Shown: in pieces, positions 17,289 to 51,142 of the stretch | How the letters are laid out: the number at the start of each line of letters is the position of its first letter | Numbering within the stretch: position 1 is the first letter of the stretch | DNA from: Lutraria lutraria | Lineage: Eukaryota; Mollusca; Bivalvia; Venerida; Mactridae | Length of the DNA: 64,000 nucleotides | Direction of reading: 5' to 3' | Assembly (NCBI GenBank): GCA_964023205.1 | Contig: OZ026835.1 | Coordinates: forward strand, 8,390,414 to 8,454,413 | Made by a program: the position numbers and the translations under genes | The notes under the pieces: generated by a model | The model's database searches: none | Told to the model about the DNA's origin: nothing | The model's input: only the letters and a program-made list of their open reading frames with translations

Positions 17289-17318
17289 ATGGCGGAAGGA
17301 ACAGATCCAAAATCAACA
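17289..17318 (+). CDS. TIR-STING exon 1: start
   Basis: ATG in a good context (AGAAATGG) encodes MAEGTDPKST and ends at GTGAGT in phase 0. An in-frame TAA lies at 17274-17276. It is joined by phase to the TIR exon 3.9 kb away, so this short exon is the least certain of the model. Confidence 0.65.
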
Positions 17319-20300: not shown

Positions 20301-23300
20301 CAAGAATTATGGGCCTTTGACTTTGAAAATTTTCTATATTTTAGTTTGTTTACACTCTAGCACATTCATTTATACACCAATCCTAATGATATTTTCAGTA
20401 CATGGGTATAAACAAAAGATTTTGAACAAGTTCGATTATTGGCGGAATCGGACCAGAACTTCAAGAGTTATGGGCCCTTGACTTAGAAAATTTGCTATAT
20501 TTTAGCTTGTTTACACTTTAGCGCCTTCATTTATTCACCGTTCCTAATCATATTTACAATGAATGTGTATGACCTTACGGATTTGGATGGACAAGTTAAG
20601 TTATGGGTGAAATTGGAGCACAACTTCAAGAGTTATGGGCCCATGGATTAGAAAATTTGCTACGTGTTAACTTGTTTAACAGTATTATAGCACCTTCATT
20701 GTTAGTTTTGATCAAAATCTACGTAAAAATGGATTATATGAGATGAAATCTACATTACCTGGTCATCGATTGTAGTGTCTTTGTTCTCAGGTGAGCGACC
20801 TAGGGCCAACCTTGGCCCTCTTGTTTTTTTCTTTAGGGGAAAGGTTGCGAAAGGAATGGAGAATGTTGCATCTTGAGGGGAAAAAGGTTAACAATAACAT
20901 GACAATGTATACCTATCCTCCGAACATTAAATTATTCACAGGTTATATCCTTGATGGGTACAGGTTATTCGGATGATTATATTTACCAAAAATGTTTTCA
21001 AGAAAAATTAAATTCTATGGAAAGGTTTTTTTTTATGAATTTAGGGTGAAAATACATATAATAATATCCTTTTCTTACATGGGAATATGGTCGAATTTCG
21101 TCCCCAAAATAGTACAAGTAGACAAGTGGATTTGTTAAGCTCAACTGTAAAAACAGTCACAACTTGATCACAGCCATTTTCACTTTTCTTTTCAGTGTAA
21201 AGTTTTTATTTCATACTATTATAATGATGAAGAATGGTATACATGTATTAAAGAACTTCTTGAAGGACAGGATGTTGAACCCAACATGATCATACAATGT
21301 GAGAGTATGAATAACTTCAAGCCTGGTGAACAACTCGTAAGAAGGTACCAAACACATGTCAGCACTTTGATAGACTTTTGTACAATGTAATATCTTATTA
21401 TAAGCACCGGCAGTAATCTTGTGGTAAAGGCAATGTGGACTCGTAACCTAGGTAGCCTGAAACCTGTTAGGTGAACCAATTGCTGTATATAACTGAAATA
21501 TCATTGTAAAAAGCCTTTAAATCTACTGAAACAAAAATTCATGTCTTATCACTCACATACATGTACATGCACACCATCTCAGCTTTTACAAGAGACTTGT
21601 TATGAAAATAGATTGTTTATTTTCATGTATGTGTGCACTTTTTTAATATATTGGTTATGTTTGATATGGTTATGAAATCCAGTCACATAAATGTACAGTA
21701 ATTAAAATGGAGAATTGAATTTGTGACACATAGTTCTATATCCCATTGGGTTTTGAAATGCACTTTATATCAATTACAATTACATGTAGATTATTTAACT
21801 GTAAATAATCACATGGTTTTTAGCGCCGTCTTGGTAAAGTACGTTGTTTAAACTAATGGTCACTTAAATAATCATTCCTTGGTTGACAGAGCTGGTGTAA
21901 GTCCTCCTTGTGGGAATTTCTTGTAGATGTTTGATACTCATACAGTGATGGCTTATGATGAATTAATATTTATACTATTATTGTTGGTTAAGAAAATTGA
22001 TTAACCTATATCAAAAGACATTAGATCTATGTTATAAATTTGATAATTTGTCTTACATTTCATTTAGCAATGAATGGCCAATTTTTGTTTCTAGGCTAGA
22101 AAAACTAGAATAAATATATGTCTCAGCAAAGTTTGATTTTGCCAATACAGATCAGGCAAAAAAAGTACCTGGTTTTCACAAATATCCCCCGGTAATTAAG
22201 GGTCAGTATGATGACAAATTTTTTTTACATGACAAATATTTTTACATGACAAATATTTTTTACATGACAAATTTTTTTTACATGACAAATTTTTTTTACA
22301 TGACAAATATTTTTTAGAAAATTAAGAAAGGCAAATTACTTATCGTTTCATGAACTGGAAAGGATCCAAGGTAAAAAAATATTGGCAAAGAGAAAATTGA
22401 CCGAAACTAAAAAGAAGTCCGAAGTCAGCAGAAAAATAGGATCGGTTTGGATAGTGAATACCAGGTACTTTTTGACATGTGACTCTATGTATTAATCTTT
22501 GTTGTAACTACATGTACCTGTATTGTAGAAAACTTATCCATATGAAAATTTTAGCATATCTGGAGCTATAGAAGAATGCTCAATCACCTTGGTTGTTGTC
22601 ACAAAGGACGCAATAGACAGGAAATTCTTGAAGTATGAATTCATGAAAGCTTTAGAAAAGTCACAGAGAGTTCAAGAACTCGGCGTTGTGTTAGTCCTTA
22701 TTAATGTTCATGAGTCTGAGGTTCAGGAAAACTGGCATGGTCATATTCATGAAAAAATGGTCATCAAGGTATCAAGTGATGGAGACTGGAAGGGCCAATT
22801 TTTGACAAGTATGATTGAAAGAATGAAAGGTATGTTCTTAACTTAGAAAGTACATCCAAACCTTGAAACAAAGGTCACACTTAGGAAAGACAAAATATGG
22901 TCTTTATTGGGAAGTCAGGGCTCCAGATAAATATTTGGGCATGGGGTATTTTACCCCCTTCTTTCTTTAGCAGGGCGTATTTTACCCCTTAATTTTTTTG
23001 TGGGGGTATTACAAATTTTTAAAGGGTAATGACAATCATGGGAACCACTCTAAAGGGTATATTCACTTATAAACACAATTACACACTAAAGCTTTACCTT
23101 TTGAACTTACTTTGTTGTATTGTGTTCTTCCATATTTAATGGGTACATCATCCTCATGAACTTATTTTGCATTCAGTAAGAATGTACATGTAGCTTATAT
23201 GCAATACCTCTGGCTTATTCAATATGTTCAACGGGTACCTGGGATTTTACGTGCGTATCGGTATGCTTTAAAAATATTTCTTATGCGTATTTCGGAAAAA

Positions 23301-26300
23301 TTAATGCGTATTTACGCAATTACGCCCTTTATCTGAAGCCCTGGGAAGTCATATTGTTTTGAATAATCAATGACAATTTTTAAAGAATGACCTTTATTCA
23401 GCATTGGCTGCAAACACAGGTTTCACTGTACATGTAATCAGACTATATTCTATATAAGTTTACATAGAATTTACCACTCTTACTGAGGATGTGACCTCAA
23501 AAATAGTAAACTTCACTCCAGTGAGTGTTTTACTCTACTGGAAATTTTAAGGAGCATAATATTCCTGCAAAGCTTGATATCCAGCAAAATCACCTCTCGT
23601 ATTCTTGAGCTACAGTGTATAACCTCTCCAAAGCAACACCTTTTGGGGAAGCAAAATTATGTTGTTGTTGAGAGGTTGTTGCTGTAGAGAGGTTAATTTA
23701 ATAGTTAATCGTGCAGTGGGAAAAATCATGCTGTTGTTGCATGGAGGTTGTTGCTCAAGAGAGGGCCGCTCTGGAGTGGTAGGACTGTATTGCCTCTGAT
23801 TCAGCAAAAAGTGATGATAAAAGACATATTTTAAGACATTTTGACTCGTTTTTATATAAATTTGTCAATTTCAGATAAGCAACAAATGGAACCTATACAA
23901 GTTGAAGTCAATCTATCTGTTGGTCAAGTCTGGAGTCATTTCTTCGGTTATTCTAAAAATGTGATGCCGGGTAAGATAAGTAAAAATTCCTAGGTCTGAT
24001 GTTAAAAAAATTGTGTTCAGTCTTCGAGCTCAAACCTCATATCTTGGTATTTAAAACTTCTAAGTTAATTATGATCAGACTATAATGATATTATTGATAC
24101 AGTAGTCTGTCTGCTTAATTGATCTGAACATGTATTTGATATTGATCAGCTCTTCCTTTTCAACCATAATACTTTGAGAATGGAATAGAAATGTGAGCTC
24201 GGAGACTGTTCTCAAGTTTTATAATCTCAGGACCTTAAATGTTTAAGGCTTGTTTGTTTTCCTCTGTCTGGGTCCTACCATTAGAAATATTAAATTATTT
24301 TTTGTTTATTTGCCAAAATTGATTATGTACACTTGTGAAATTGATAAATATGCTTTACTTTAATCTGCATTATATCTTATGTAAATAAAACTTTTCCTAT
24401 GAAACATAATTTTATTGTCTTGAACAAGTTATTGAAGAGATTTTTTATTTCTAAATTGTGCCATTTTATTATCTAAGTGTTAAAATTCTGTTTCTTTTCC
24501 ATAATTTGATAAATACATTTATTTATTTGTTGTGTTTCAGTATTAAAAGACAGAATACTTGCTACTCAGTGGTACCATGGAAATGAAATGAGATTTCCCT
24601 TGAAAGAATTCAACCTTATACCAAAAAGTGCAACAGCTGTAAATTCTTTATCTGATATTCATGACCGTATTAAGGTAAATCAAAATCCTATGATATTTTA
24701 TGAACCTATGGATTTCTGTGACAGAAATGTTTTGTTTTCATTTACATGTATTCCATAGTGATGTAGAATTTTTGCATTTCGCAAAACTACAAATGTCTTG
24801 ACTAGAGCTGTTGATCATGGGTAAGTGGCGATCTGATCCACAAATTTATCGAATCACGAATCTTTTGTTATCGAGTAACCCATCTAAAACTTCAATACTG
24901 CAGTCCTGAAGACAGCTAAAGTTAATTTTCTTTTAGAAATAATGAAGTGAATTAATTATAAATTGTTCTATGGCTTAAATTTATACGTACTCCCTTCCAA
25001 TTAATGGATTTACCAGCAGTTTGAGCCTGTGACCCAATAATTAAAGGTTCAATTGGACCTCTTAGCAAACAAAGTAATCTGTGATGAGACAATATATATT
25101 CAGAGAAAAGGGATTTTTAAGAACAAAGAATACACTATATGTTAAAAAACAAGATCGTGAACCACAAATCTCTGTAATGACGATTATTTGTTCTTGATTT
25201 TTCAAAATGATTTGTAATTTCCCGAGTACTCGGATATTCGCCATGGCCCTAGTCTTGACCCGCCTCCTTGGTCGAGTGCTTAAGTGCGCTGACTTCAAAT
25301 CACTGTAACCTCACACTGATAGAGGGTCGTGGTTTCGAGCCCAGCTACTGACCATGTCTAGGCAGTTGCTTACGGAGGATGGGCGTCTAGTACTGGTTCT
25401 TCTCAGGAACGATGGTCAGGTGAACTGTCTGCTCTGACTGTTGAAAAGCAGCGTAAAACCCGATGAAACAAGCAAACAAACAAATGTCTTACATTTTGGA
25501 ACATACATTTTTAAAAAATCGACTCTACTGTCAAACTTGTGCTAGCGATCACCTCCAAATAACAGCCACCCTGTGATTAAAGGTCATTCTTTTTATACAA
25601 TCATTGATTATTTAGAACAAAATGACCTCCAAATAAAAGGCCAACTGTTAATAACGACCACATTATGTATTTCTCAAGGTTGGCCTTTTTTCACAGGTTT
25701 GACTGTATTCAGTAAAATTAAAATCCAACTTTGTTACCTCCTCAATAGTTTATAAGACCACCTCATTTTAGTGATCTTTTTCTAAGACTTGGTTTTAACA
25801 TTCCCTCAATATCTAGACCAATTTATATCGCCCCAACAATGGTGTTTGTATCCAGATTACATTGTATGTGTTTTTTAGGGATGTTCGTTTGCCCTTTTGC
25901 TAGGCGCTGGACTAGTGAACGCAATATTGTCGTTTAGATTCTGGGCTCCGACAACCGAATTTCACAGGGACGCTTTTTCAGTGTCCCCATAGGGATATAA
26001 ATGCCTGGTTCTGCTGTATCTAATCTCCTCTCTCTCTCTGTGGCGACTCTGAAATGATCATAGTTGTCATATGGGCCATTAAACAACAGATAAATAAATA
26101 AGTATTTGTACCAATTCGTTTGGTCTGAAAAGGGATATAAGTATCCAGATTTCATTGTGTGTGTTTAAATTGGCAGAGTGAAGGGGCTGTTGATGTTATT
26201 ATTTCACAAAGAGGAAGTAAGGACCTTAAGTACAAGCCTCCTGTGTACAGCATCACTGATGACAGTGGACAGGTATCTAACATTTCTTTGGCAAAAAATG

Positions 26301-29300
26301 CATGGTTACATTAAAAAAAATTATCAGTAGGTTGGCAGAACTTTTGTTTCAAATAATGTTATTATCACCAAGAAAAAATTTACTTCCCACTTTAACTAGT
26401 GAGTCTACATTACATGTCACAGTTCTAATAGCTTGAACTAACACTATTTTAAATTTCACATTAAATTAACTGCACATATTGACTTCATAATTTCAGAAGT
26501 ATTATTTTGTCGCCCACATTCCAAATACACTTAGTATTCTCAGCAAAGAAAAACTTCAGCAACAGAACGATACAGGGAAACAGTTGAAAATCTCATCTGG
26601 AGAAAGATCTCTGCAGGTAGGTATACTTTTAGTGTTATTTTCAAACAATTGAATGAATTATTAACCCTTCCAATGCCAGACATATATTGCCTTACATTGT
26701 ACACTACATTGCCAAGGAATTTTTATACACCTGTTTGAAAAACGTATTACGGGAACGCCCATGGTCGGCGGGAGTTCGGATGGGTGGGTTTACGGGCGGG
26801 CAGGCAGCATCCACAACAGTGTCCGCTCTCTAATTCAAACAGTTTTATTCGGATCCTCACCAAACTTGATGGAACTATTTATGCCTTTATGGCCATAAGA
26901 TCTCGATAACCAGTCCAATCAGCCAAGGCATTTCCGAGCTATGTCCCTTGATGCTTTGAAAAATTACTTTTGACACATGTATTTTGTGATCTGGTCCTCT
27001 TGTTATGAAATGCAAGCTTATTTAAAACTTTTGACCTATTCCCAAATGGGTATACCTGTCAAGTAGGCAAATATACAGATATTTGTGAAAATGGGTCTAC
27101 TTGTTACAGAGGCAAAATTTATAGAGATTTGTGCAGATTCATTGGCAGGAAAATGGTTAATCTGTTAATATAAGTATGTACATTTAAAATCTGTATATTC
27201 ACATTTTGTTTACAATTTCTATGTTATAGTTGTTTACGTTCTCAATGTGCTTACATGATTAGGTTTGGGGTAAAAAAATGACCTTAGGCCAATAATAATC
27301 ATTTGAAGAAGTCAACAAAATGTCTTACAAATGTAATCTCTCAAGAGTCAGAAGCTTTTTTTGACTAATTCTAAGAGTCAAAATGCCATTTTAAGGCTCA
27401 AATGAGTGCACTCCTAACAAAAGCAACATGCCCTGTAAGCTCAGTGGTCAGGGCATTGGTCTACTGATCAAGAGGTTGTGAGTTTGAACCCTAGGTGAGG
27501 CTCACACTGTCTGTGACAAATTTGACTGAAGATATAACATCTATGTTAAATTGTCCTCCACCTCTAAATTATGTGGGGTAGCTTGGTAGTAGCTTACAGA
27601 TAGAATATAATATGTTAGTACTGGTTAAAGGTCTAAATGAAGTCCAGGAAAGCTCGCTAGGATAACTACCTGCCACAATAAGACTGAAATATTGTTGAAA
27701 ATGGTATTAAACCAGATGAAACAAACAAGCAATCTTACGAAATAAATATTTGTTGACGTATTGTTTTTCGTCTGTCTGTCTGTTTGTTTGTACCAAACTT
27801 TATACTTGTCTATAAAACCAAATGCTACCACCTACAGTCATCAAACATCATATGTTGGTTCCTAAAGACAATGACTACAGGACCTGTAAGGATATTGTTC
27901 TGGCATTGTCCGCCCAGCTGATTGTACATTCATACTTTCATCACACTTTTTATACCCCCAGATATGAAATATATGGGGGCTATATTGGATTCATGATTGA
28001 CGTTTGGCCGGTCGGACGGTCCATGCATCTGTAGACACAATTTGTCAGGACAATTTCTCACCGACTACTAACAGGATTTCATTTTAACTTCACAGAAGTG
28101 TTCAGTAGTAAGCCTTGTTGTGCATGCTTAAATCATTTTTTGTTTGGATTCTTTTTTTACTGAGTTATAGCCCTTTGTGTTTTTATACAGGCATATTTTG
28201 TCTAGACTGTTTCTCATTTACTACTGACAGGAATTCAATGAAATTACAAAGAAGTGATAAGTAGTTAGCCTAGTTGTGCAAGCTTATCTTGTTTGGCTAA
28301 ATGTTCACTGAGTTATGACCCTTTGTTGTGTTTAGCTCACATGTCACAAAGTGACAGGGTTAGCTTTTATGATCAGTCTTCGTCCGGCGTATTGCGTTGT
28401 CAAACTTTACCTTGTGAACACACTAGGAGTCACATTTTTAGCTCAATTTTCACAAAGTCTTGGTCAGAATGTTAATATCGATAAAATCTCGTGCAAGTTC
28501 GATGTTGGGCCATTTGGGGTCAAAAACTAGGTCACTAGGGCCAAATAAGAGAAAACTTTGTGAACACTTTGAATCACTGTTTTGATTGGATCTTCATAAA
28601 ACTTTGTCAGAATCTTTATTTCAATGATATGTAGGTCATGTTTGATAATGGGTCATATCCAGTCAAAAACTAGGTCACTAGGGCAAATTGCTGGAATACC
28701 TTGTGAACACTCTTGAAGTCACTGTTTTGATTGGATGATCATGGAACCTTGTCAGAATGGTAGTCTTTATAATATCTTGGATGAGTTCGAACATGGGTCA
28801 TCTTGGGTCAAAAATTAGGTCGCTAGGTCAAATCTTATGAAAAGCCATGTTAACACTGTAGATTTCACAGTTATAATTGGATCTTCGTCAAACTTTGTAA
28901 ACCTTGTAAAAGCTCTAAATATCATGATTTTTATTGGATCTTAGCCAAACCTTGTCAGATTGTTCATCTTAATGATATTAAGGACAAGTGCAAATATGGG
29001 TCACCTAGGGTAAAAATCTAGGACACAAGGTCACGCCTTAGGAAAACCTTATTTACACTGTAGATGTCAAATTTTGATTGTATCTTCACCAAACCTTGTC
29101 TGAATGTTTGTCTTATTTATATGTAAGACAAATTCGAACATGGGTCATCTGGGGTCAAAAACTAGGTCACAGATTCAAGACAATGTTTTAATGAGTGAAC
29201 AGTGATTGCCATGTGAGCGATATAGGGCCATCTTGGCCCTCTAGTTTATACTGTGTATATATATACAATATCGCAGCAACTACTCATAGGAATTCAATGA

Positions 29301-32300
29301 AACTTCACAGAAGTTATAAAAAGTAAGCCAAGCTTTTTTCATGCAATAAACAGGTTTTGTTTGGTTTAATTTTCACTGAGTTACGGCCCTTAGTTTTATA
29401 CAATAGGTAAATTTTGTCCAAACTATTTCTCAGCAACTACATGCAGGAATTCAGTGAAACTTCTTGGAAATGATTAAGTAGTTTGCCAAGCTGTACATGT
29501 CCACAATAGATTTTGTCCAAGTAAATTTCAATGAGTTATGGCCCTTGGTTATTTTTTTATATAATGTGTATTTAGAAATCGGTCAGGATATTTCTAAGCA
29601 ACAATTTGCAGGCATTAAAAAAACGAAAATGTGTTATATTTCCCTTTGTAAAATGTAACAATAACTGTGTCAAGGTGGCATCTGGGGGTATTCATCACCT
29701 TCAGTGATAGTTCTAGTTGAAACTTGCTATAGCTTTAAAAGCTTTGAAGGTTTTTGTTTGAAACTTATCATATCGATATGTACAGCGTGATGCATGAAAG
29801 TGGACTTATCAAGAACCATAACTCTTTCATGCACTATGACAAAATTATCCCCCTTTTCAACTTTCAAAGATTGTCACTTCATTGTAACTTACAATAACTT
29901 GAAAAGTATTAAAGAGAACCAGATGAAACTTGACATGCTGGTAGAGCATGATAAGTGGAAGAGTACAGATCAAGAATCATGTAACTCTATTGTACATTTT
30001 GACAAAACTATACCCTTATCTGAATTAGAAAAAGATGTCACTTTTACTTACAATTACATTAAAAGTACAAAAGGGTACACAATGAAACCTGAAATCTAGG
30101 TAGAGTGTGATGATTGGAAGTGCAGTGTGCAAGAATCATAACTATATCTTTCATTTTTACTGAATTATCCTTTTTTAGGACTTAGAAAATGGTCACTTTT
30201 ACTTATAAGTACTTTTAAAGTACCAAAGGGAACTGCATTGAACTTGTGATTTAACCAACTGACAAAGATACTCGGTGAGGGATGTCAGTTGGACAAATGT
30301 ACTTGTTTTTTAATTTAATTACCAAACATTTTAAATTATTTCCCACTTATTTCAATGAATATTTCAGGTAGCTCAGTTCAGTATTATGTTCAACCATTTA
30401 CTAAATCACCCATCAAACAAAGAATGTAATGATATGGTGGAACTTATAGAATATGATGATGGTAAGTTTGTAAATAAATAAAAACTAACACATTTCTATT
30501 CTTTTGTATGTCCCATATCTCTTATTGAATATGAAACTAAATAATGGTGTAACTGTAAATACAGTACAACCTCTGTAAAGCAACACCCTGTGGGACCTGC
30601 ATATATTGACTGTTGTTTAGAGGTTGTTGCTCTACAGAGGTTAAATTTATAGTGAGTATCAGTTGTTAAATAAAGGTTGTTGCTCTACAGAGGGTCACTC
30701 TGGAGAGTTGTACTGTATATCTTGAGTGTACAAAAAAAACTTAACCAAATAATGCTGCATATGTTGTTTATAGTTAACGTAGATTGAGAATAAAGTATAT
30801 TTTGTATTCTGAGACCACTTTGAATTATTTTTAGCTCACATGTCACAAAGTGACAGGGTGAGCTTTTGTGATCAGTCTTCGTCCGGCGTTGTGCGTCGTC
30901 AAACTTTAACTGGTGAACACACTAGGGGCACATTTTTAGCTCAATTTTCACAAAACTGGGTCAGAATGTTAATATCGAGAAAATCTCGGACAAGTTCGAT
31001 ATTGGGCCATTTGGGGTAAAAAAATAGGTCACCAGGGCCAAATAAGGGAAAACCTTGTGAACACTTTAGAAATCACTGTTTTGATTGGATCTTCATGAAA
31101 CTTTGTCAGAATCTTTATTTCAATGATATGTAGGTCAAGTTTGATAATTTCCGGTGAAAAACTAGGTCACTAGGGCAAATTGCTGGAAAACCTTGTGAAC
31201 ACTCTAGAAGTCACATGTGATTGGATCATCATGAAACCTTGTCAGAATGTTTGCCTTAATAATATGTGGGTCAAGGTTGAACATAGGTCAGCCCTGGTCA
31301 ACAACTAGGTCACCAGGTCAAATCTTAGTTAAAAACCTTGTCTTTGCTGTAGTTTTCATGGTTTTGATTGGATCTTCACCAAACCTTGTCAGAATATTTG
31401 TCTTAATTACATGTAGGACAAGTTCTAACATGTGTCATCTGGGGTCAAAAACTAGGTCACTGGTTCAAAACAATGTTTTAATGAGTGAACAAAGATTGTC
31501 ATGTGCGAGACACAATCTTGGCCCACTTGTTTAATAGTCACATGACACAAGTCTGTGTTTCATATTTTACAGCTAATGTTATTAGCTTAGTGGTGACTTA
31601 CCTAATGCAAGAGAATAAAGTCTTATTTTGTTATTACATTGTTGGTGACTTAATTCATTTACAGTTCACAACCTCCAAAAATAAATTTCATTTCTAAAAA
31701 TGACTGCTTCCACAAATGTTAACCATCATTAGACAATTGTTGCGTGCAACTTCCATGGCTGTAACTCCAAGGTCAAGGTAACACTTAGAGGTTAAAGGTC
31801 AAAAATCAGTATTTTATTTTGTGTCCACTCAGTAACTTTGTCATCTATAGTTGGGTTTTGGAAATACCTGACAGAAATGTTCACCAACATGACTGTGATT
31901 GTGTGTCATGCTTAAGACCAAGAATAAAACTGCCCCTCAAAATGAATAAAGTTCGCATCTTTACGTATTAGCCTATAACATTTCCGAAAAACTTCAGATT
32001 TTAAATAATCTGTATCAAAGCAACATGTGGGAGTATCCATCACTCCTGGGATAAAGATCTAGTTCAAGATATAGATTACTTTCAGACCATAAGAAACATA
32101 TTGATCAATTCAAATGTAAATCTTTTCAAATGGAACAGAAAGTAGAAATTCTACAAAGATTGTTACATCTAAAATACAAAATGTATACTTATGTAATGTC
32201 TCTACAAGCAAGCAAAACATGAAGATTCTTAGAAACTGCAAAATATCAAACTTGGCAAATTTGATAAAAAAGACATAATTATGATATCGGTACATTGTAC

Positions 32301-35300
32301 ATACAGCATATATACACATAAAAAGTCGAACTTGTGAATAAAGGCCACCCTTGAAAAGTTGCTCTAAATATTTAATGGCGGAGTTTCAAAGAGTGACCTT
32401 TATTCACATGGTGGCCTTTTTTCAGAGGTAGCTACAAACAAAGATTTTACTGTGTATATGACATGTATGTATAATTCAGGCAAATTGTCTGGTGAGCAGA
32501 TTGTTCACCTTATACTTGAGACAGTAAAGAGAGCGTGTCCACGTACAGAAGATAGTGCTCAGGGTAACCAGGTAAAAATATATCAGTCTTACCTAGTGTT
32601 TTCACTGAAATGCATAAGAAATGCATGTAATGATCTCTTTTTAATCCAAAATAGATAAACAATATGTTGATATTTCTATTACAGCAATAGGATGTTCAAT
32701 TTTCATAAATGCACCATCAAAAAAAAACAAAGATAAAAAGAAATTCAGCAGCTGTTGAAATATTTTTCTTCTGGTTCAGTATATGTTTGGTGATTATTAG
32801 TGATGAAAGGAATACTGTTTATCTGATTCATATTGTCATAAAAGCAGATTTATGTATTTTTCAGGTACAAGGACCTGTTCCTTTGTATCAAAGAAATAGC
32901 ATGCAGGTATGTGATAAACTCATTCTAAAATGTATGTGAAACAATTTATTTACTGTAAATTAATTGAACAGTCCCCATTTAATCTTCATCAAACTTGGTC
33001 AAAATGTAAATGAGTATAAAATCTTAGTAATCAGCAAAATTGCCCCAAGCTTTCTAGAATTATGGCCCCTGATTCAGCTATAAAATTATACAATAGTCTT
33101 TGTCCACTCTCTATTCACTGTAAAAACAAATGCTACATTTTAAGTAAGAATTAACACAATAATGAAGTAGCTGAAAGTATACTGCATATCATCGTAAATT
33201 TTTATAATGAAAACACCATAACTATTCAAATAACAATTGTTTTCGTAGAACCATTGGCATCCCACCGCCGCTGGAACAACGTTATCAATGACGTCAGGTC
33301 ACATTTTGTGAAGAAACGCACCGTTGAATTGCACACAACGTTCATGTCTGTGGACCCACCTTTTGAATGTGTTCTTGTAAAATGGCATGTCAAATCCCCT
33401 TAAGACATTGCACATGGCAGGAGCTCTTCAAAGCTGGAGAAATGTATACCTTTCAAATAATATTTTAAATTCCGAACAGAGAAGGTCACAATGCGCCAAT
33501 TTTGGCCAAAATACTGCAGGTGTTCCTGGATCTCAGCACCTAGCTGGACAGTAATAGATAATTGGGCGACTAGTGCCCAGTGACTTAGGGCTTTACCTTG
33601 TGTAGAGTTATGTTCTCTAGGTCATCGGATCATGGTAAAACAACCTGTTCAGAAATCGAGAACATTCTCGTTTGTATCGCCTCAGAATTGTTTTACTGAG
33701 TATCATAGCTTTTCCATTTCATAATTTGACAACAATTGTGGGACCCATCTTGCACTTAAGTCTTCTGTTAAACTTTGATGAATCCCCCAAAACTTGTATC
33801 GACCTTCTCACTAATCTGACTTATTGTTGTCCGCCTATCTATGTCCAAGATTTCTTAAACAAGCTTGACGTTAGCATCGCTAAGTTTTGTTGTCGGTTGG
33901 CCACACCTTATGTCATCTTTAATCTCATCACATCCGTTATGGAATCTTGTGAGCCACTTATCGGCACACATTCTCTTTTCCTAAAACATTCTCCAATTTT
34001 TCTTTAGTTTCTGTCGGTGTCATTTCTTAGGCAAGAGTTAGGCAAAATTTGATAACTGCTCTTTGTTCTAAATTGATGTCCAACGTCGCATGGCGTTGTT
34101 TCTCATATGACCCCCAATATCTTGGCATTTTCATAGTTATGTAATAATAAGTTCAATTTTGTTTAAATCCGGCAGCTAAGGTGTTATTGTATGACGTTGA
34201 CGTCATTGATTTATGACAGGGTTTCACGCCAAATTGAGGCCACAGTAAATGCTGGATTTGCGAATAAATATTAAATTTTTGATCTGCAGTGGTTATGCTT
34301 ACTATTGTTGCTATGGTGATCGATTTTATGTGTTTATGAAAGTTTTTTAGTGGAAATTAATTATACTTTTTTGTGTTCATTAACCTTATATACAAATATC
34401 AAAAGTATACAATGAATTATAACAGTAACAGCAAGGTTGTCCACGAAATTAATGATCACTCCTCGTACTTCTATATTATTTAAGTGATTGCGATGAAACT
34501 TGAAATATGTTATCACCATGAAGTGCAGATGTGAAAGACACAATTTTCATGCCAAGCGATTTGCTCACTCTAAGCCCTTGAATTTGACCATATAGTATAT
34601 AATGGCTTTCTTTGAATGTTTGTGGAGCAAACTACTTCTGCATTTTTCAAGAGATTAAATTGAAACTTGAAATATATTATCAGTATGAAATGTAGATGTG
34701 CAAGACACAATTTCAGTGATCCACTCATTTCAGAGTTATGTGCCCTTGAACTTAGCCATGTAGTGTACTATCACATTATTAGTGTCAAAGCGGCGTGGAG
34801 GGTATTCAAGTCACCTCTGTGACAAAGCTCTAGTTTTTTTCAGGTTGATAAAAAACCGTCTGTCAAAGAAGACATGGCATGTTTGAATGAAGATTATGCT
34901 AACACAGTTTACATAGCTCATGTAGACGATGATGCTGAAACTGCTGAAGGGCTTAAACAATTTCTCAACAATGAGAGTATCCATGTATGGGAGAAGGACA
35001 TTGATGAGACTCCAACCAAAACGGTTCTGACAAATTTCACAGAGGCTGCAAAAAATGCCAAGTGGTTTGTATTTATTTTGTCCAAATCATCTATGACTGA
35101 ATTACAGAAGCAAAATTTCCGGATGGTACTTCAGAAAAGCATTTTTGAAAATGAGGTGCGACTTATTCCTCTACTTTGTGAAGACGTAGATGAGACGGAC
35201 CTCCCTGGAGATTTGAGATCAGTGCTGTGTCTTAGCAAGTCTAGTACTAACTACAAGGAACTGTTAGCTGCTACTGTGAAATGTGAGTGAACTTTCAATC

Positions 35301-38300
35301 AGTATTACTGTAGATTTTATTGTTATTGTATTTTCACAATTTGTAACCATTGATTTTTTAGCTCCGATGAGCACTAATGTGCTCAGGGTAAGCTTTTGTG
35401 ATCAGTCTTCGTCTGGCGTCGTGCGTCGTCAAACTTTGCATTGTGAACTCACTAGGGGCCACATTTTTCTTTCAATTTTCGCAAAACTGGGTCAGAATGT
35501 TAATATCGGCAAAATCTCGGACGAGTTCGATAATGGGCCATTTGGGGTCAAAAACTAGGTCACCTGGGCCAAATAAGTGAAACTTTGTGAACACTCTAGA
35601 AATCACTGTTTTTATTGGATCTTCGTCAGAATGTTAACTTTCATGTAGGTCATGTTTGATAATGGGTCATTTCGGGTGAAGAACTAGGTCACTTGCGCAA
35701 ATTGCTGGAAAACCTTGTGAACACTCTAGAAGTCACTGTTTTGATTAGATTATCATGAAACCTTGTCAGAATGTTTGTTTTCATAATGTTTTGGACAAGG
35801 TTGAACATGGGTCATCTTGGGTCAAAATCTAGGTCGCTAGGTCAAATCTTATGAAAAACCATGTTAACACTGTAGATTTCACAGTTATAATTGGATCTTC
35901 ACCAAACTTTGTAAACCTTGTAAAAGCTCTAAATGTCATGGTTTTAATTAGATCTTGGCCAAACCTTGTCAGATTGTTCGTCTTAATGATATTAAGGACA
36001 AGTGGAAATATGGGTCACCTAGGGTCAAAAACTAGGACACAAGGTCAAATCTTAGGAAAACCTTATTAACACTGTAGATGTCAAATTTTGATTGTATCTT
36101 CACCAAACGTTGTCAGAATGTTTGTTATAATAATATGTAAGACAAATTCGAACATGGGTCATCTGGGGTCAAAAACTAGGTCACAGGTTCAAAACAATGT
36201 TTTAATGAGTGAACAGTGATTGTCATGAAAAACCATGTTAACACTGTAGATTTCACAGTTATAATTGGATCTTCACCAAACTTTGTCAAATTGTTTGTTT
36301 TAATGAAAGTACAGTCATCTGAGGTCAATAGCAAGGTCACTAGGTCAAATCTTAGGAAAACCTTATTAACGCTGTAGATGTCACAGTTTTGATTGGATCT
36401 TCACCTAACCTTGTTGGAATGTTTGTCTTAATGACATGTAAGACAAATTTGAACATGGGTCATCTAGGGTAAAATACTAGGTCACGAGGTCAAATCGTAA
36501 GAAAACCTTGTCTATGTTGTAGTTGTCATGGTTTTGACTGGATCTTCACCAAACCTTTTCAAAATGTTTGTCGTATTTATATGTAGGACAAGTACTAACA
36601 TGTGCCATCTGGGGTCAAGAACTAGGTCACAGGTTCAAAACAATGTTTTAATGAGTGAAAAATTATGTTTTAGAAAATCCTTAATTTTGTGTTTCACAAT
36701 GCAAATTTCCCTTATCAAAGGCACCCAATACCTGTTCTCTAAAAAAATTTAAAAAAGGCTGAGGGAACATTGTGCAACGCCCAGAAATGTAAAATAAGAT
36801 ATCTAGGTCTGCAGGCATTACACTCTCCCTTTGAGCTGAGCGGACAGGCTAGAAAATTAAATTTAAGGAGTTTGCTGCAACTAAATGTTTTTATGTCTGT
36901 TGTTCAAGGTCGCAGTATCAAAATGGAGGCCAAGGTCACTATTAAAGGTGTACATTCTGGTTTGGCATGGGCATATGCAATCAATTACCTCGAAGTCACC
37001 AAAGGTTAGTTGAAATATTCATTGAATCATGGCATTCTATTTCATACTGTACATATGAATAAATTATTAATTGAAACACACTCAATGAAGATTATGATCA
37101 TCTGCAGAGTTTCAAAATGTCTAAAAAATTCATTATATGTAAATATTAGAAACAATATTAATATTGCAACTCAATGTTAAAAATAAATCATTCAATGCTC
37201 TTCGCTAAACTTGTTTTCTAGTGAATATCTCAGAAAAAGAAACAAGAAAGCTTGCAGAGAAGTATACAAATGCTAAGATACATCATAAATTATTCTTGTT
37301 GATTCCGAAATCATGTCAAACAAAAAAACTGGTAGAGCTGGACAAAGATGCTGATGGTCACCTTCTTGACCCTTCGCGATTCAAGGTGTTACCTGCAGAA
37401 TTTGAGATCGCAACTTCACGTATAATAAATGGCATAGAAAGGTTTTACCAACTCTTGCCATACATGGTTACAGATGACAAACGACAGGTAAGTACTTCTT
37501 GATTATTTATTACTTAAATGTTATTGTTAAAAGATTTTTCATCATGACTTATTCTCTTCTCAGACATCTCTGTAAGTTGAACAGACTGTATAAAATCATA
37601 TTTTTTTGTTACCATGAAAGAGGTAAACATGAAGAGCCTGTAATATAATGGGTCTTTTTTCACTTTGATGACAAAATTAAATGAAATACAGTCAAGCCTG
37701 TAAACAAAGGCCACCATTTGGAAAGACTATATGTGATCTTTATTGACAGATGGCCTTTCTTCAGTGGTCATTTTTTTACAAATAATCCATGACTTTTTTA
37801 AAGAATGTACTATTCACAGTGTGGTCTTTATTCACAGTGTGGTCTTTTTTCACAGTGTGGTCTTTATTCGGAGGTGGCTGCTAACACAGGTTTGACTGTA
37901 CATGTTTATGTAAAATGCAGTAAAACATGAATAAACGCCTGATTTCTGTTTACATCCCCAGAAATTCAGGCACATTCACAGGTGGCTGTATCAGTGTTTG
38001 GTTCACAGAAAAATAAATCCCTTCACTGAGCTAATGTGCCCACAGGTGGCAGTATCAGTGTTTGGTCCACAAATGATGCAAAAAAGAAATTCCCTTCACT
38101 GATCTTATATATACTATCAAGGTGAAAAGCCTACTATATGTGATAATGTCTATATGCCAAACAATGTGGAACATCGCATCTCGTTTCAGCATAAAATACG
38201 TGCAGCTACATATGTCATAGATATTCTACTATAAGATATTCATCCCCACCGAAAATCTCATTCAATTATATCTAATAACTGTAAAAAGCAGTAAAAGAGT

Positions 38301-40283
38301 GTTTATTCCGTTATTTAACGGATCGCTTGATACCTCACACTTTACTCATAATGGCTTGCAGTGAAGTTAAATAACGAAAGGAACACAATTTTATCGTTTC
38401 ACAGATATTAGATGTAATTGAATGTGATTTTCTTACAGTTTATCTGAATGACATGTGTTGCGATTTTCGTTCAGGGTCCATCTTTTTGCTGAAACAACGA
38501 GATGCGATGTTCCACATTGTTTGGCATTATAGACATATAGTAGGCTTTTCACCTTCATAGTATATATAAGATCAGTGAAGGGAATTTTTTTTTTTGCATC
38601 ATTTGTGGACCAAACACTGATACTGCCACCTGTGGGCACATTAGGTCAGCAAATTTTTTTTCAAATATTTTTGTTAGTTTGACGATAAGTTAATACGAAA
38701 ATGAAGATACCAGGTAATCTTTATATCCAAATATGTTACACTGTCTCATGGTGTTATGATATATAAATTATTGCTGATATGAGGCATCTTTAAATTTCAC
38801 AAATTTGTCATAAACTTTCCTACCAACTGTGGTCTATAAAATGTCTAATGTACTTATCAAATGCATTTAAGGAGCACATTGTGTTTGCTGAGTATGTGAA
38901 TCCAGTGAAATGTTTACAAGAAATGCTAAATAAGGACATGAGAGCTTTGTCTGGTCTTACAAATGATGTGTTTGACGATGAAGTAAACAAGTTCCAAGCA
39001 TTGCTTAAAGATATCATCAGATGGCAAAAATTGGACAAACAGTTTGCTGTTGTGTTCTATGACGGTATGTGAAAGTAATTTATCTAAATAAAGTGAATGA
39101 ACCATGATTATGGCACGCGCAACTTTATTTTGCTGTTATCACAAGCTGGGAGCCTGTGTGTTATAGATGATAATGACAAAACAAGTCAAATTTGAATTTT
39201 TTGAAGTTTATTAGATTTGGAGTTCATGCTGTTAGATGTATTCTCTTGTCATTGGTTGTGGAATTACCAAAATCTAATCTGAATTCAAGTTACAAAAGCA
39301 CCTAATTACCCAAATCTAATCTCAATTCAAGTTTCAAAAGCACCAAATTACCAAAATCTAATCTCAATTCAAGTTTCAAAAGCACCAAATTACCAAAATC
39401 TAATCACAATTCAAGTTACAAAAGCATCAAATTACCCAAATCTAATCTCAATTCAAATTTCAAAAGCACCAAATTACCCAAATCTTATCTCAATTCAAGT
39501 TTCAAAAGCACCAAATTACCAAAATCTAATCTCAATTCAAGTTTCAAAAGCACCAAATTACCAAAATCTAATCACAATTCAAACTTCAAAAGCACCAAAT
39601 TACCAAAATCTAATCACAATTCAAATTTCAAAAGCACCAAATTACCAAAATCTTATCACAATTCAAGTTTCAAAAGCACCAAATTACCCAAATCTTATCT
39701 CAATTCAAGTTTCAAAAGCACCAAATTACCAAAATCTAATCTCAATTCAAGTTTCAAAAGCACCAAATTACCAAAATCTAATCACAATTCAAATTTCAAA
39801 AGCACCAAATTACCAAAATCTAATCTCAATTCAAATTTCAAAAGCACCAAATTACCCAAATCTGATCTCAATTCAAGTTTCATAAGCACCAAATTACCAA
39901 AATCTAATCTCAATACAGGTTTCAAAAGCACCAAGATCTTTCTAGAAGAATAATTATTAAGATCTGGGTTTCACTTCTAGAATCTAGACGTTTTAAAATA
40001 AAACATTGGTATGTATTACATGTGGGAATGGTTTCTCAGAGCAAGTATTGAAAATCCATTTTATATGAACATGTACATGTATTGATGTTTATTTCTTGTT
40101 ACATGGCAAATGCTGCATACATTAGGTTGTTCCTTTATAGCCATGTTCTATTGGTACAGTAATGAATTGTTTGTACTATATGTAATTAAAGGAAGAAATT
40201 GACTCAGTATGGTTATTATTTTCTCTTCAGATAAAGGTAAAGATGTGGTCAATGTTCTATTGGATCTGTTGGAGGAGACTTAG
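17289..40283 (+). CDS. TIR-STING-TIR-STING protein (15 exons, 724 residues)
   Basis: Soluble innate immune protein with two TIR-STING units. Exons: 17289-17318, 21196-21344, 22555-22829, 23875-23970, 24541-24674, 26177-26272, 26497-26616, 30368-30461, 32480-32571, 32865-32906, 34844-35282, 36909-37004, 37222-37487, 38872-39064 and 40231-40283; they sum to 2175 bases, exactly 725 codons with the stop. TIR1 spans about residues 11-150, STING1 157-360, a linker 363-394, TIR2 395-520 and STING2 528-722. STING domains bind cyclic dinucleotides and TIR domains signal or cleave NAD; bacterial and oyster TIR-STING fusions are established. There is no membrane segment, so it is unlike ER-anchored vertebrate STING. 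TIR1 retains Glu88. An in-frame TAA lies just before the ATG. Function is inferred from domains. Confidence 0.92.
17933..18107. mobile_element. Palindromic MITE, family A copy 2
   Basis: TACAGTGCAACCTCTCCAAA at the left and GGAGAGGTTGTACTGTA at the right, with an internal GTTGTTGTGGAGAGGTTGTT. In intron 1 of the TIR-STING gene. Confidence 0.8.
19151..19781. repeat. 75-base tandem array flanked by MITE-like ends
   Basis: CAATTTTGTT (last copy CAAGTTTGTT) recurs at 19251, 19326, 19401, 19476, 19551, 19626 and 19701, giving seven near-identical 75-base units. As 75 is a multiple of three, a 212-codon minus-strand frame with a 25-residue period stays open; it is not a gene. The left end TACAGTGCAACCTCC and right end GGAGGTTACTCTGTA match family A ends. 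Confidence 0.9.
19926..20826 (+). mobile_element. Array-bearing dispersed element, copy 1
   Basis: Starts TTTAGCTCACCTG and ends CAGGTGAGCGACC, then GGGCCAACCTTGGCCCTCTT, with a hairpin-forming 3' end. The middle has about four units of roughly 160 bases (TTTACACTCTAGC near 20042, 20184, 20347, 20508). The layout resembles oyster pearl and Helentron-related non-autonomous elements. Family naming is tentative. Confidence 0.65.
21196..21344 (+). CDS. TIR-STING exon 2: TIR1 N-terminal half
   Basis: Acceptor CTTTTCTTTTCAG. Encodes CKVFISYYYNDEEWYTCIK, the TIR strand A and helix A, through KPGEQLVR (box 2 region). Only the weak donor AAG/GTACCA at 21345 keeps frame with exon 3; the stronger-looking CTC/GTAAGA at 21337 would shift frame and truncate. 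Confidence 0.8.
22211..22316. repeat. Short tandem repeat TTTTTTACATGACAAAT
   Basis: Five to six units of 18-21 bases, each ending ACATGACAAAT, in TIR-STING intron 2. Confidence 0.75.
22555..22829 (+). CDS. TIR-STING exon 3: TIR1 C-terminal half
   Basis: Acceptor AAAATTTTAG, donor GTATGT. Encodes ISGAIEECSITLVVVTKDA and KYEFMKAL, with Glu88 at the position of the catalytic glutamate of NADase TIR domains, then VVLVLINV and the TIR end. Confidence 0.9.
22851..23430. mobile_element. Palindromic MITE, family B copy, split by a hAT-like element
   Basis: Outer ends CAAACCTTGAAACAAAGGTC and ACACAGGTTTCACTGTA are inverted and match family B copies at 25526, 32323 and 37687. The middle is interrupted by the element at 22917-23342. 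Confidence 0.65.
22917..23342. mobile_element. hAT-like non-autonomous element (426 bases)
   Basis: Inverted ends AGGGCTCCAGATAAA and TTTATCTGAAGCCCT differ at one position. It is flanked by a perfect 8-base duplication GGGAAGTC at 22909-22916 and 23343-23350, the size typical of hAT transposition. No transposase is encoded. Confidence 0.8.
23611..23789. mobile_element. Palindromic MITE, family A copy 3
   Basis: TACAGTGTATAACCTCTCC to GGACTGTA, with the same internal plan as the copies at 3259 and 17933. It lies in intron 3, just upstream of the first STING exon. Confidence 0.75.
23875..23970 (+). CDS. TIR-STING exon 4: STING1 first helix
   Basis: Encodes VGQVWSHFFGYSKNVMP (residues 167-183), the counterpart of the STING helix GLAWSYYIGYLRLILP. 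Ser172 and Tyr177 match human Ser162 and the base-stacking Tyr167; His173 replaces Tyr163. Confidence 0.9.
24541..24674 (+). CDS. TIR-STING exon 5: STING1 core
   Basis: Acceptor TTGTTGTGTTTCAG, donor GTAAAT. Encodes VLKDRILATQWY and KEFNLIPKSATAV, matching the second helix and the LYILLP strand of STING. Confidence 0.9.
24803..25251. mobile_element. hAT-like non-autonomous element, family C copy 1
   Basis: Begins TAGAGCTGTTGATC and ends CGCCATGGCCCTA, with a perfect 8-base duplication GTCTTGAC at 24795-24802 and 25252-25259. Its interior (GATTCG or AATCACGAATC, CCCGAGTACTCGG) matches the element at 62089 in opposite orientation. In intron 5 of the TIR-STING gene. Confidence 0.8.
25261..25484 (+). 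mobile_element. tRNA-derived SINE, family S1
   Basis: A-box-like TTGGTCGAGTGCTTAAGTGC, B-box-like GGTTTCGAGCCC, the shared body GTCTAGTACTGGTTCTTCTC and a CAAACAAACAAA tail. It is closely related to the minus-strand copy at 59642. Confidence 0.8.
25526..25707. mobile_element. Palindromic MITE, family B
   Basis: TACTGTCAAACTTGTG at the left and CACAGGTTTGACTGTA at the right, with GCCACC or GGCC stems inside. In intron 5. Confidence 0.65.
25877..26101 (+). mobile_element. SINE-like copy with GATAAATAAATAA tail
   Basis: Shares ATAAATGCCTGGTTCTGCTG and ATGATCATAGTTGTCATA with the 62559-62656 and 9715 copies and ends in a GATAAATAAATAA tail. Confidence 0.55.
26177..26272 (+). CDS. TIR-STING exon 6: STING1 lid region
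   Basis: Exactly 32 codons in phase 0. Contains QRGSKDLKYKPPVYSI, which aligns with the ligand lid. Tyr247 matches human Tyr240, while Leu245 stands where Arg238 is expected. Confidence 0.85.
26497..26616 (+). CDS. TIR-STING exon 7: STING1 core strand and helix
   Basis: Exactly 40 codons. KYYFVAHIPNTLSIL corresponds to the segment of human STING containing the LEYATPL motif; the expected Glu and Thr are not conserved here. Donor GTAGGT. Confidence 0.87.
27429..27732 (+). mobile_element. tRNA-derived SINE, family S2
   Basis: tRNA-like head with A box AAGCTCAGTGGTCAGGGCAT and B box GAGTTTGAACCC, then an unrelated body and a GATGAAACAAACAAGCAA tail. In intron 7. Confidence 0.65.
27948..29715 (+). 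mobile_element. CCCCCA-ended dispersed repeat, split by another element
   Basis: Begins TATACCCCCAGATATG with inverted ATATGGGGGC. It continues as imperfect units (CTCAGCAACTAC, GGAATTCAATGAAA, GAGTTATGGCCCTT) and ends near CTGGGGGTATTCATCACC. The block at 28329-29248 is inserted within it. Confidence 0.5.
28329..29248 (+). mobile_element. Array-bearing dispersed element, copy 2
   Basis: Starts TTTAGCTCACATGTC and ends CATGTGAGCG, then GGGCCATCTTGGCCCTCTAG. About six units of roughly 145 bases lie inside (TGTGAACAC at intervals of 145, 145 and 144). In intron 7 of the TIR-STING gene. Confidence 0.7.
29794..30250. repeat. Three imperfect units of about 157 bases
   Basis: AAGAATCAT-type motifs near 29812, 29972 and 30130 are each followed by GACAAAA or ACTGAATTATCC and CACTT. 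The 101-codon frame here is repeat-derived and not a gene. Confidence 0.5.
30368..30461 (+). CDS. TIR-STING exon 8: STING1 helix and last strand
   Basis: Encodes VAQFSIMFNHLLNHPSN, the counterpart of the STING helix LEQAKLFCRTLEDIL, and ELIEYDD, matching the closing strand CRLIAYQE. Confidence 0.87.
30560..30717. mobile_element. Palindromic MITE, family A copy 4
   Basis: TACAGTACAACCTCTGTAAA to GGAGAGTTGTACTGTA. In intron 8, directly upstream of another array-bearing element. Confidence 0.75.
30831..31532 (+). mobile_element. Array-bearing dispersed element, copy 3
   Basis: Nearly identical 5' end to the copy at 28329 (AGCTCACATGTCACAAAGTG) and a related 3' end (CATGTGCGAGACAC, TTGGCCCACTTG). 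Roughly 145-base internal units. Confidence 0.7.
32323..32454. mobile_element. Palindromic MITE, family B, short copy
   Basis: AGTCGAACTTGTGAATAAAG with GGCCACC at the left, GGTGGCC and AAAGATTTTACTGT at the right. It lies immediately upstream of exon 9. Confidence 0.55.
32480..32571 (+). CDS. TIR-STING exon 9: end of STING1
   Basis: Encodes GKLSGEQIVHLILETVKRAC, a C-terminal helix after the core fold. Acceptor ATAATTCAG, donor GTAAAA. Phase-consistent on both sides. Confidence 0.8.
32865..32906 (+). CDS. TIR-STING exon 10: inter-unit linker
   Basis: Fourteen codons (VQGPVPLYQRNSMQ) with acceptor TATTTTTCAG and donor GTATGT, phase 0 in and out. As a symmetric exon it could be skipped without frame change. 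Confidence 0.7.
33640..33980 (-). pseudogene. Degraded mariner-type transposase fragment
   Basis: On the minus strand, WLTRFHNG, DDIRCGQPTT, DRRTTISQISEK and SLTEDLSARWVP appear in order, matching the DNA-binding half of mariner-like transposases (W..RF..G, DD.RSGRP, DRR.TI..IA, LTEDL...R.VP). Stops and at least one frame change interrupt it. It lies antisense in intron 10 of the TIR-STING gene. Confidence 0.65.
34400..34840 (+). repeat. Dispersed repeat abutting the TIR2 exon
   Basis: Units with GAAACTTGAAATAT and AAGACACAATTT recur about 195 bases apart. The end, GGAGGGTATTCAAGTCACC then AAAGCTCTAGTTTTT, resembles the 3' ends at 29690 and 32030. It runs straight into the polypyrimidine tract of exon 11. 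Confidence 0.5.
34844..35282 (+). CDS. TIR-STING exon 11: complete second TIR domain
   Basis: One 439-base exon holds all of TIR2: NTVYIAHVDDDAETAEGLK, KWFVFILSKSSM, and VRLIPLLCEDVD. At the place of Glu88 of TIR1 it has Asn467 (QNFRMVL), so NAD cleavage by this copy is unlikely. Acceptor TTTTTTTCAG, donor GTGAGT. Confidence 0.9.
35359..36656 (+). mobile_element. Array-bearing dispersed element, copy 4 (3' end not typical)
   Basis: Begins TTTTAGCTCCGATGAGC and continues with many 135-150-base units (CTTTGTGAACACTCTAG, GGGTCAAAAACTAGGTCAC). The expected GGCCCTCT end is missing. It fills intron 11. Confidence 0.65.
36909..37004 (+). CDS. TIR-STING exon 12: STING2 first helix
   Basis: Encodes VTIKGVHSGLAWAYAINYLE, very close to the STING helix (human NVAHGLAWSYYIGYL). 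Tyr545 and Tyr549 match Tyr163 and Tyr167; Ala544 replaces Ser162. Donor GTTAGT. Confidence 0.92.
37222..37487 (+). CDS. TIR-STING exon 13: STING2 core
   Basis: One exon covers the region split over two in STING1. Contains KLFLLIPKSC (STING strand LYILLPLDC) and ATSRIINGIERFYQLL in the lid region. Arg621 aligns with human Arg238, while Ile623 stands at Tyr240. Confidence 0.9.
37687..37900. mobile_element. Palindromic MITE, family B
   Basis: TACAGTCAAGCCTGTAAACA at the left and ACACAGGTTTGACTGTA at the right. TATTCACAGTGTGGTCTTT is repeated in tandem inside. In intron 13. Confidence 0.7.
38031..38644. repeat. Large inverted repeat with about 158-base arms
   Basis: Arm 38031-38190 (CTAATGTGCCCACAGGTGG ... 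CATCTCGTTTCAGC) is nearly reverse complementary to 38488-38644, around a spacer of about 300 bases. A partial direct copy of the outer arm precedes it at 37975-38030. Inside intron 13. Confidence 0.85.
38872..39064 (+). CDS. TIR-STING exon 14: STING2 C-terminal core
   Basis: HIVFAEYVNPVKCLQEML aligns with TCVLEYATPLQTL of human STING (Glu650 conserved, Asn653 for Thr263), followed by a helix and QFAVVFYD, the closing strand. Acceptor GCATTTAAG, donor GTATGT. Confidence 0.9.
39265..39935. repeat. 42-base tandem array (about 16 units)
   Basis: Units built on TCAAAAGCACCAAATTACC and AAAATCTAATCTCAATTCAA repeat every 42 bases with low divergence. The array occupies much of the last intron of the TIR-STING gene. 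Confidence 0.9.
40231..40283 (+). CDS. TIR-STING exon 15: C terminus
   Basis: Acceptor TTTTCTCTTCAG. Encodes DKGKDVVNVLLDLLEET and the stop TAG at 40281-40283. No long tail like the TBK1/IRF3-recruiting tail of vertebrate STING is present. Confidence 0.88.
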
Positions 40284-50708: not shown

Positions 50709-50874
50709 AAAGACTGACCAACAGATTTGTGTACTTAAAGAGAAAAGGAACACCAAAGCTTATGGAAATAATTACACTTGTACTTGGTTGGTATCCGAAT
50801 GAAATCCAACCATATACGCTGTCGGGGTAAGCACATACTTCTTTCTATACGAATGAGTAACAGCTATCGCTAAA

Positions 50875-51142
50875 ATGGACTCCTACATTACATGTATCGA
50901 AACACATGAAGATCCAGAGACCGCTGAAGAATTTACACCTAGTCATTATCAATCAATAGAAACAGAGGGATCGACTCATACCGATGATGAAAATAATATA
51001 CCCAGAGCACATGTTGATGGATATGACGAGATGTATCCAATGACAGAACAAACTGTTCCTTTACCATTCAATTTGTTCTTGTCAAAAGTCGCTCGGTCAA
51101 TTTCGAATGAAGATTTGGAACAAATCAAGTTCATTTTTCGAG
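50875..51142 (+). CDS. DED gene exon 1
   Basis: Encodes 89 residues: an acidic N-terminal region (ETHEDPETAEE, HTDDENN), then helices 1 and 2 of the DED (PFNLFLSKVARSISNEDLE). Donor CGAG/GTATCT. Confidence 0.82.

Follow-up and report, generated by a model that had tools for sequence, protein, structure and literature searches.

The window (the whole stretch of 64,000 nucleotides of Lutraria lutraria DNA analyzed here, part of contig C4 in a genome of 728.5 Mb) very probably holds, judging from its sequence, a real gene that is best taken as a single one and that encodes a protein of 710 residues in which two TIR-STING units follow one another (TIR1-STING1-TIR2-STING2). That one gene carries two such units had been proposed in a first-pass annotation of this DNA, and the proposal is well supported by an in-phase gene model, by Pfam, and by relatives that align from end to end.

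Gene Model and Domain Assignment

We joined the exons by hand from frame readings and GT-AG sites, and then corrected the model against a protein of Mactra antiquata. The hand-joined model has the order TIR-STING-TIR-STING and comprises 14 exons on the + strand between positions 17289 and 40283, with 2133 bases and 710 residues; every junction is GT-AG and in phase, and there are no internal stops. The first-pass annotation had placed the start and the stop at the same two positions, and its phase-consistent joining without an internal stop is borne out in its core, but its 15 exons, 2175 bases, and 724 residues were not reproduced. The exons are as follows:

17289..17318, + strand: exon 1, start codon and 10 residues, phase 0 out; the N-terminus aligns with the Mactra protein
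21196..21344, + strand: exon 2, first half of TIR1, phases 0/2; 149 bases, equal to exon 2 of the paralogue on contig C11 (phases imposed there)
22555..22829, + strand: exon 3, second half of TIR1 including the KYE glutamate, phases 2/1
23875..23970, + strand: exon 4, first helix of STING1 (VGQVWSHFFGY), phases 1/1
24541..24674, + strand: exon 5, STING1, NLIP strand, phases 1/0
26177..26272, + strand: exon 6, R238/Y240 region of STING1 (L in the R238 column, Y in the Y240 column), phases 0/0
26497..26616, + strand: exon 7, STING1 strand with AHIPNT replacing EYATP, phases 0/0; located via the Mactra protein
30368..30461, + strand: exon 8, helix and closing strand of STING1, phases 0/1
32480..32571, + strand: exon 9, end of STING1 and start of the linker, phases 1/0
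34844..35282, + strand: exon 10, rest of the linker and the entire TIR2 (catalytic column without glutamate), phases 0/1
36909..37004, + strand: exon 11, first helix of STING2 (SGLAWAYAINY), phases 1/1
37222..37487, + strand: exon 12, LLIP strand and kept R238/Y240 region of STING2, phases 1/0
38872..39064, + strand: exon 13, FAEYVNP strand of STING2 with E260 kept, phases 0/1
40231..40283, + strand: exon 14, C-terminus and stop

A model of 13 exons and 2085 bases was rejected, as alignment with the Mactra protein showed that exon 7 was missing and that the splice sites at exons 2, 3, and 9 were wrong; the block of 40 residues and the wrong stretches, as judged against the Mactra protein, were all located in the window with proper splice sites. 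Two alternative acceptors keep the frame, at 22529-22554 (paired with the exon 2 donor at 21336) and at 32426-32479, and it is possible that they give rise to splice variants or account for the differing exon count of the earlier reading. The long open frames at 19150-19791 and 39283-39950 are minisatellite arrays in introns of the TIR-STING gene and are not coding evidence.

Both units exceed the curated Pfam cut-offs, which are 28 bits for TIR_2 and 27 bits for STING_LBD: unit 1 scores 43.0 and 62.2 bits, respectively, and unit 2 scores 40.9 and 47.4 bits. The 708-aa Mactra protein also has two stretches each of TIR_2 and STING_LBD. For each half, the best sequence match in the PDB is the oyster TIR-STING 6WT6, with E-values of 7.1e-11 for unit 1 (from the 13-exon model) and 6.5e-15 for unit 2. 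As had been noted before, both STING units carry a helix of the GLAWSYYIGY type (VGQVWSHFFGY in the first, SGLAWAYAINY in the second), followed by a LIP strand and the closing strand. In both units the TIR lies N-terminal to the STING ligand-binding domain in one chain, which is the arrangement that defines a metazoan TIR-STING; the definition also has a single TIR and a single STING per chain, where we find two of each. Reading the protein by eye, we recognized no transmembrane part.

Relatives and Paralogues of the Double Gene

The nearest named match is in Mactra antiquata, an imparidentian bivalve of the order Venerida, where ACF0H5_007528, labeled "hypothetical protein," is one predicted protein of 708 aa that aligns end to end with the window product at 62% identity. 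Another relative, of 713 aa (five member sequences), aligns over 99% of length at 34% identity and sits on a contig of 2420 bases; this is too short for introns such as these, the modeled genes spanning 23 kb (window) and at least about 19 kb (C11), so that the contig is most simply a transcript. These two were the only double-form relatives found, with 7997 and 6992 candidates scored, and because both matches run from end to end, at 62% and 34%, chance is excluded.

A second double gene lies in the same genome at C11:2877213-2896551. We chose its splice sites by eye, guided by the reading frames of the tblastn matches, and are least certain of the donor of exon 9; its phases equal those of the window gene at the 11 junctions that run from exons 3/4 through exons 13/14. 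Its exon 2 was sought under imposed length and phases, and the best of 98 candidates, at 149 bases, scored 35.3, the next distinct one only 7.3, while a loose tblastn search with the first 75 residues of three proteins gave no convincing match for its exon 1. An intron of this gene holds a coding-looking minisatellite of the unit FYVMPKLGQQ (C11:2888000-2890530).

Two more loci lie farther along the same contig. The third, on the - strand from 21015535 to 21004547, has TIR, STING, TIR, and STING pieces in that order, one STING2 piece meeting a stop soon after its matching part. The fourth, on the + strand from 21027826, has one TIR and three STING pieces (the last by eye), with no second TIR or STING up to 21047999, and looks like a single TIR-STING; its helix, VFNHYIGY, is STING1-like. 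The third, double-order locus and this apparently single one thus stand head to head within C11:21004547-21037200, about 12 kb apart. When the genome was searched with STING1 only, at E up to 10, the 10 matches listed all fell in the window gene and in the C11 gene at 2.88 Mb, and the third locus was missed.

These relatives bear on whether two adjacent single TIR-STING genes, each with its own promoter, have been wrongly joined, which we hold to be highly improbable. An ATG does stand directly before TIR2, at 34874, but it is absent there in all three other double proteins (the Mactra protein, the 713-aa protein, and the C11 paralogue). Intron 9 is 2.3 kb long and contains three AATAAA or ATTAAA words, although, by a rough estimate, about 2270 AT-rich bases would contain close to that many by chance. 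Moreover, the two units are joined in a single protein in two relatives, of which one sits on the contig of 2420 bases, and the phase of the exon 9/10 junction is equal in the window gene and in the C11 gene, where the donor was chosen by eye. Transcripts that stop after exon 9 or 10, together with an independent start before TIR2, had been named in the first-pass annotation as the mark of two separate genes; this outcome is disfavored, since in each relative a single protein spans the two units, and the ATG at 34874 is not kept.

Origin of the Two Units

When units 1 and 2 of the window gene are aligned with each other, three STING junctions fall at matching columns (within one column) and have the same phases: a phase 1 intron follows the first STING helix, a phase 0 intron precedes the E260 strand, and another in phase 1 precedes the last exon. 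The first of these pairs is three columns apart in the C11 gene. The TIR/STING junction is in phase 1 in both units of the window gene, and unit 1 has three additional introns inside its domains relative to unit 2. In trees, the STING1s separate from the STING2s, four in each group (100/100 for both), and the four TIR1s also group together (98/98, with the C11 TIR1 row lacking exon 2); the TIR2s fall on the other side with the oyster TIR, in a branching that is not settled. The trees had just two outgroups, oyster and Nematostella, and units 1 and 2 may or may not be sisters. From the separate groupings of unit 1 and unit 2 it follows that the divergence of the units is older than the C4 and C11 genes and older than the separation from Mactra. 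The best explanation appears to be that TIR-STING genes were duplicated in tandem or fused to form the double gene, before the C4/C11 paralogues and Mactra separated.

Unequal Halves

We aligned four STING1 and four STING2 domains (from the window gene, the C11 gene, the Mactra protein, and the 713-aa protein) and compared 12 pocket columns, numbered as in human STING, where we take Y167 to be the stacking tyrosine and Y240 the lid tyrosine. G158, W161, Y167, and Y240 are unchanged in all eight domains, and the T263 column has N in all eight. At columns 162, 163, and 166, every STING1 reads S/H/G and every STING2 reads A/Y/N. The E260 column has H or Q in the four STING1s and E in the four STING2s; the P264 column has T throughout STING1, and P (two) or A (two) in STING2; and the T267 column has I or V in STING1 and C in STING2. 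The lid arginine R238 is kept in seven of the eight, the window STING1 having L. Fixed differences between STING1 and STING2 in the pocket are not many, at 3 of the 12 columns versus 8 of 175 overall (P 0.011, uncorrected, and with a pocket list drawn up after the pattern had been seen).

The TIRs differ as well. A helix C glutamate (KYE) occupies the NADase position in all four TIR1s and in none of the four TIR2s, which have N, Q, Q, and K. This glutamate is necessary for NADase activity but not sufficient, and a glutamate is found at the same column in TLR TIRs that are not NADases, so its presence in TIR1 is no proof of catalysis. The third locus has the same residue pattern by eye, unaligned. 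Between the window and Mactra proteins, identity is highest in STING1 (75%), followed by STING2 (65%), TIR2 (57%), TIR1 (51%), and the linker (14%).

The window gene had earlier been described as placing two cyclic-dinucleotide sensors and two TIRs in one chain. The two copies of each domain stand, but the equality of the units does not: TIR2 is without the glutamate, STING1 is without the E260/P264 side, and the window STING1 is also without R238. As the halves have unequal residues, "two sensors" is doubtful, and a two-part receptor with one catalytic-like TIR seems to fit the data better than two equal sensors.

Possible Mechanism and Alternatives

In bacterial TIR-STING, according to excerpts of PMC9402430, the ligand closes the STING dimer, dimers stack side by side, and the TIRs come together; the NADase site there, with its catalytic E84, also needs D110 from the opposite TIR to be complete, and activity is lost in D110A. 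The protein of the Sphingobacterium faecium CBASS system combines TIR and STING as the window gene does, and the model we use is its mechanism of a filament with a shared TIR site (PMC9402430, in excerpt). On this model, the product of the window gene would be a cytosolic receptor of the cyclic-dinucleotide type, with STING1 and STING2 as unlike partners around one pocket, a proposal drawn from residue patterns and analogy to which we give an even chance of being right. The two could pair within one chain or between two chains, STING2 providing the side of the pocket with E260 and R238, and STING1 the side with S162. The ligand would then close the lid and stack the units laterally, as in the bacterial protein, and lateral stacking would bring the TIRs together; TIR1, which has the glutamate, would act as the effector (as an NADase or by docking), and TIR2, lacking it, would serve as a scaffold or as an activating partner. 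With STING1 and STING2 in the two places of a dimer, one side of the pocket would have E260 and the other S162, and just one TIR of the pair would carry the glutamate. A built-in pseudo-dimer is plausible and would be consistent with the reciprocal residue losses. AlphaFold predictions of the Mactra protein, at a mean pLDDT of 36.6 alone and 40.6 together with the 713-aa relative, were too poor to support pairing of STING1 with STING2. Since STING1 lacks E260, P264, and in the window also R238, the composite pocket may bind nothing.

The losses could also be taken to mean that the gene is one double gene whose STINGs bind no cyclic dinucleotide and serve only as scaffolds that gather TIRs. STING1 lacks Y163, E260, T263, P264, and in the window R238, while in STING2 the S162 position is A and both G166 and T263 are replaced by N, and base stacking and the R238 lid contact are termed universally conserved in an excerpt of PMC9980059. 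Nevertheless, we consider this rather unlikely, as Y167 and Y240 are present in eight of eight domains, R238 in seven of eight, and E260 in four of four STING2s, and STING1 is the best conserved domain of all (75% between window and Mactra). The oyster TIR-STING, too, deviates at S162, T263, and P264, yet oyster STING is reported to bind cyclic dinucleotides (PMC8218723 and PMC5869526, both in excerpt). Another arrangement would have two chains pair like with like (STING1:STING1 and STING2:STING2), with unit 2 as sensor and unit 1 as regulator, or with a different ligand for each. Each STING type does have its own conserved pocket letters, and the known STINGs are all homodimers. Homodimers are also what the excerpts of PMC9402430 describe. 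A STING1 homodimer, however, would be without E260 on both sides and a STING2 homodimer without S162 on both, and an unlike pair would be the simplest reading of this reciprocal loss; we therefore regard pairing of like with like as doubtful.

The unlike pairing of STING1 with STING2 could also be obligate within one chain, forming an asymmetric pocket for an asymmetric or non-canonical cyclic dinucleotide and switching an enzymatic TIR1 that depends on TIR2 as a catalytically dead partner. This version is speculative and, in our judgment, quite unlikely to be correct. If it were true, it would be the first STING known to us in which the two-fold symmetry of the sensor has been broken through gene fusion; the STING structures known to us are all symmetric dimers of a single type of chain. 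Fused TIR-STINGs whose halves lose different pocket and catalytic residues would offer a natural experiment on the roles of half-sites.

Relation to Known Systems

Single TIR-STINGs were already known in oysters and bacteria, as the first-pass annotation had said, and the bacterial ones are single units. The Crassostrea gigas TIR-STING (PDB 6WT6/6WT7) likewise has a TIR followed by a STING in one chain, but it has one unit in a chain of 415 residues versus two units here, and its identity to each of the STING units here is 24% across the compared piece. Transmembrane animal STING shares the STING ligand-binding domain PF15009 with the window gene, which differs from it in having a TIR instead of a recognized transmembrane part and two STING domains. 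In excerpts of PMC10732462, animal TIR-STING is read as a fusion separate from, and convergent with, the bacterial one; eukaryotic TIR-STINGs are described as rare, with an unclear role for their TIR; and the word "tandem" is absent from the paper's text. Excerpts of PMC9980059 report that 88% of cases have a single STING, that 3-10 are found in some species, among them C. virginica and the coral S. pistillata, and that some bivalves have very many cGAS-like enzymes. Oyster STINGs with TIR domains are noted in PMC5869526 (in excerpt). A double TIR-STING unit is not named in the excerpts of PMC13142454 or PMC8218723, and in those of PMC4346834 the word STING is absent, a legend having the older name MITA / transmembrane protein 173. 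In a limited literature search, with these sources seen in excerpt, we met no earlier description of the double unit, and we do not claim priority. Such genes could already be described by Gerdol et al. in 2017, in work that is reportedly on bivalve TIR proteins, or by Morehouse et al. in 2020, in work said to be on oyster TIR-STING.

Other Features of the Window and the Genome

Elsewhere in the window, the exon-like pieces at 50857-51153 and 54285-54590 (+ strand), joined without a check of splice sites, together match a death effector domain (Pfam DED, E-value of 2.1e-6; 28.3 bits, below the cut-off of 35.9), and a coiled-coil-like exon at 56458-57267, downstream of them, may share their gene. 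An astacin metalloprotease exon lies on the - strand at 1545-2000 (Pfam E-value of 3e-16). Many further TIR matches occur on contigs C1, C5, C7, C9, C10, C15, and others; over half lie in open frames at least about 690 residues long, and the matches are perhaps expanded TLRs.
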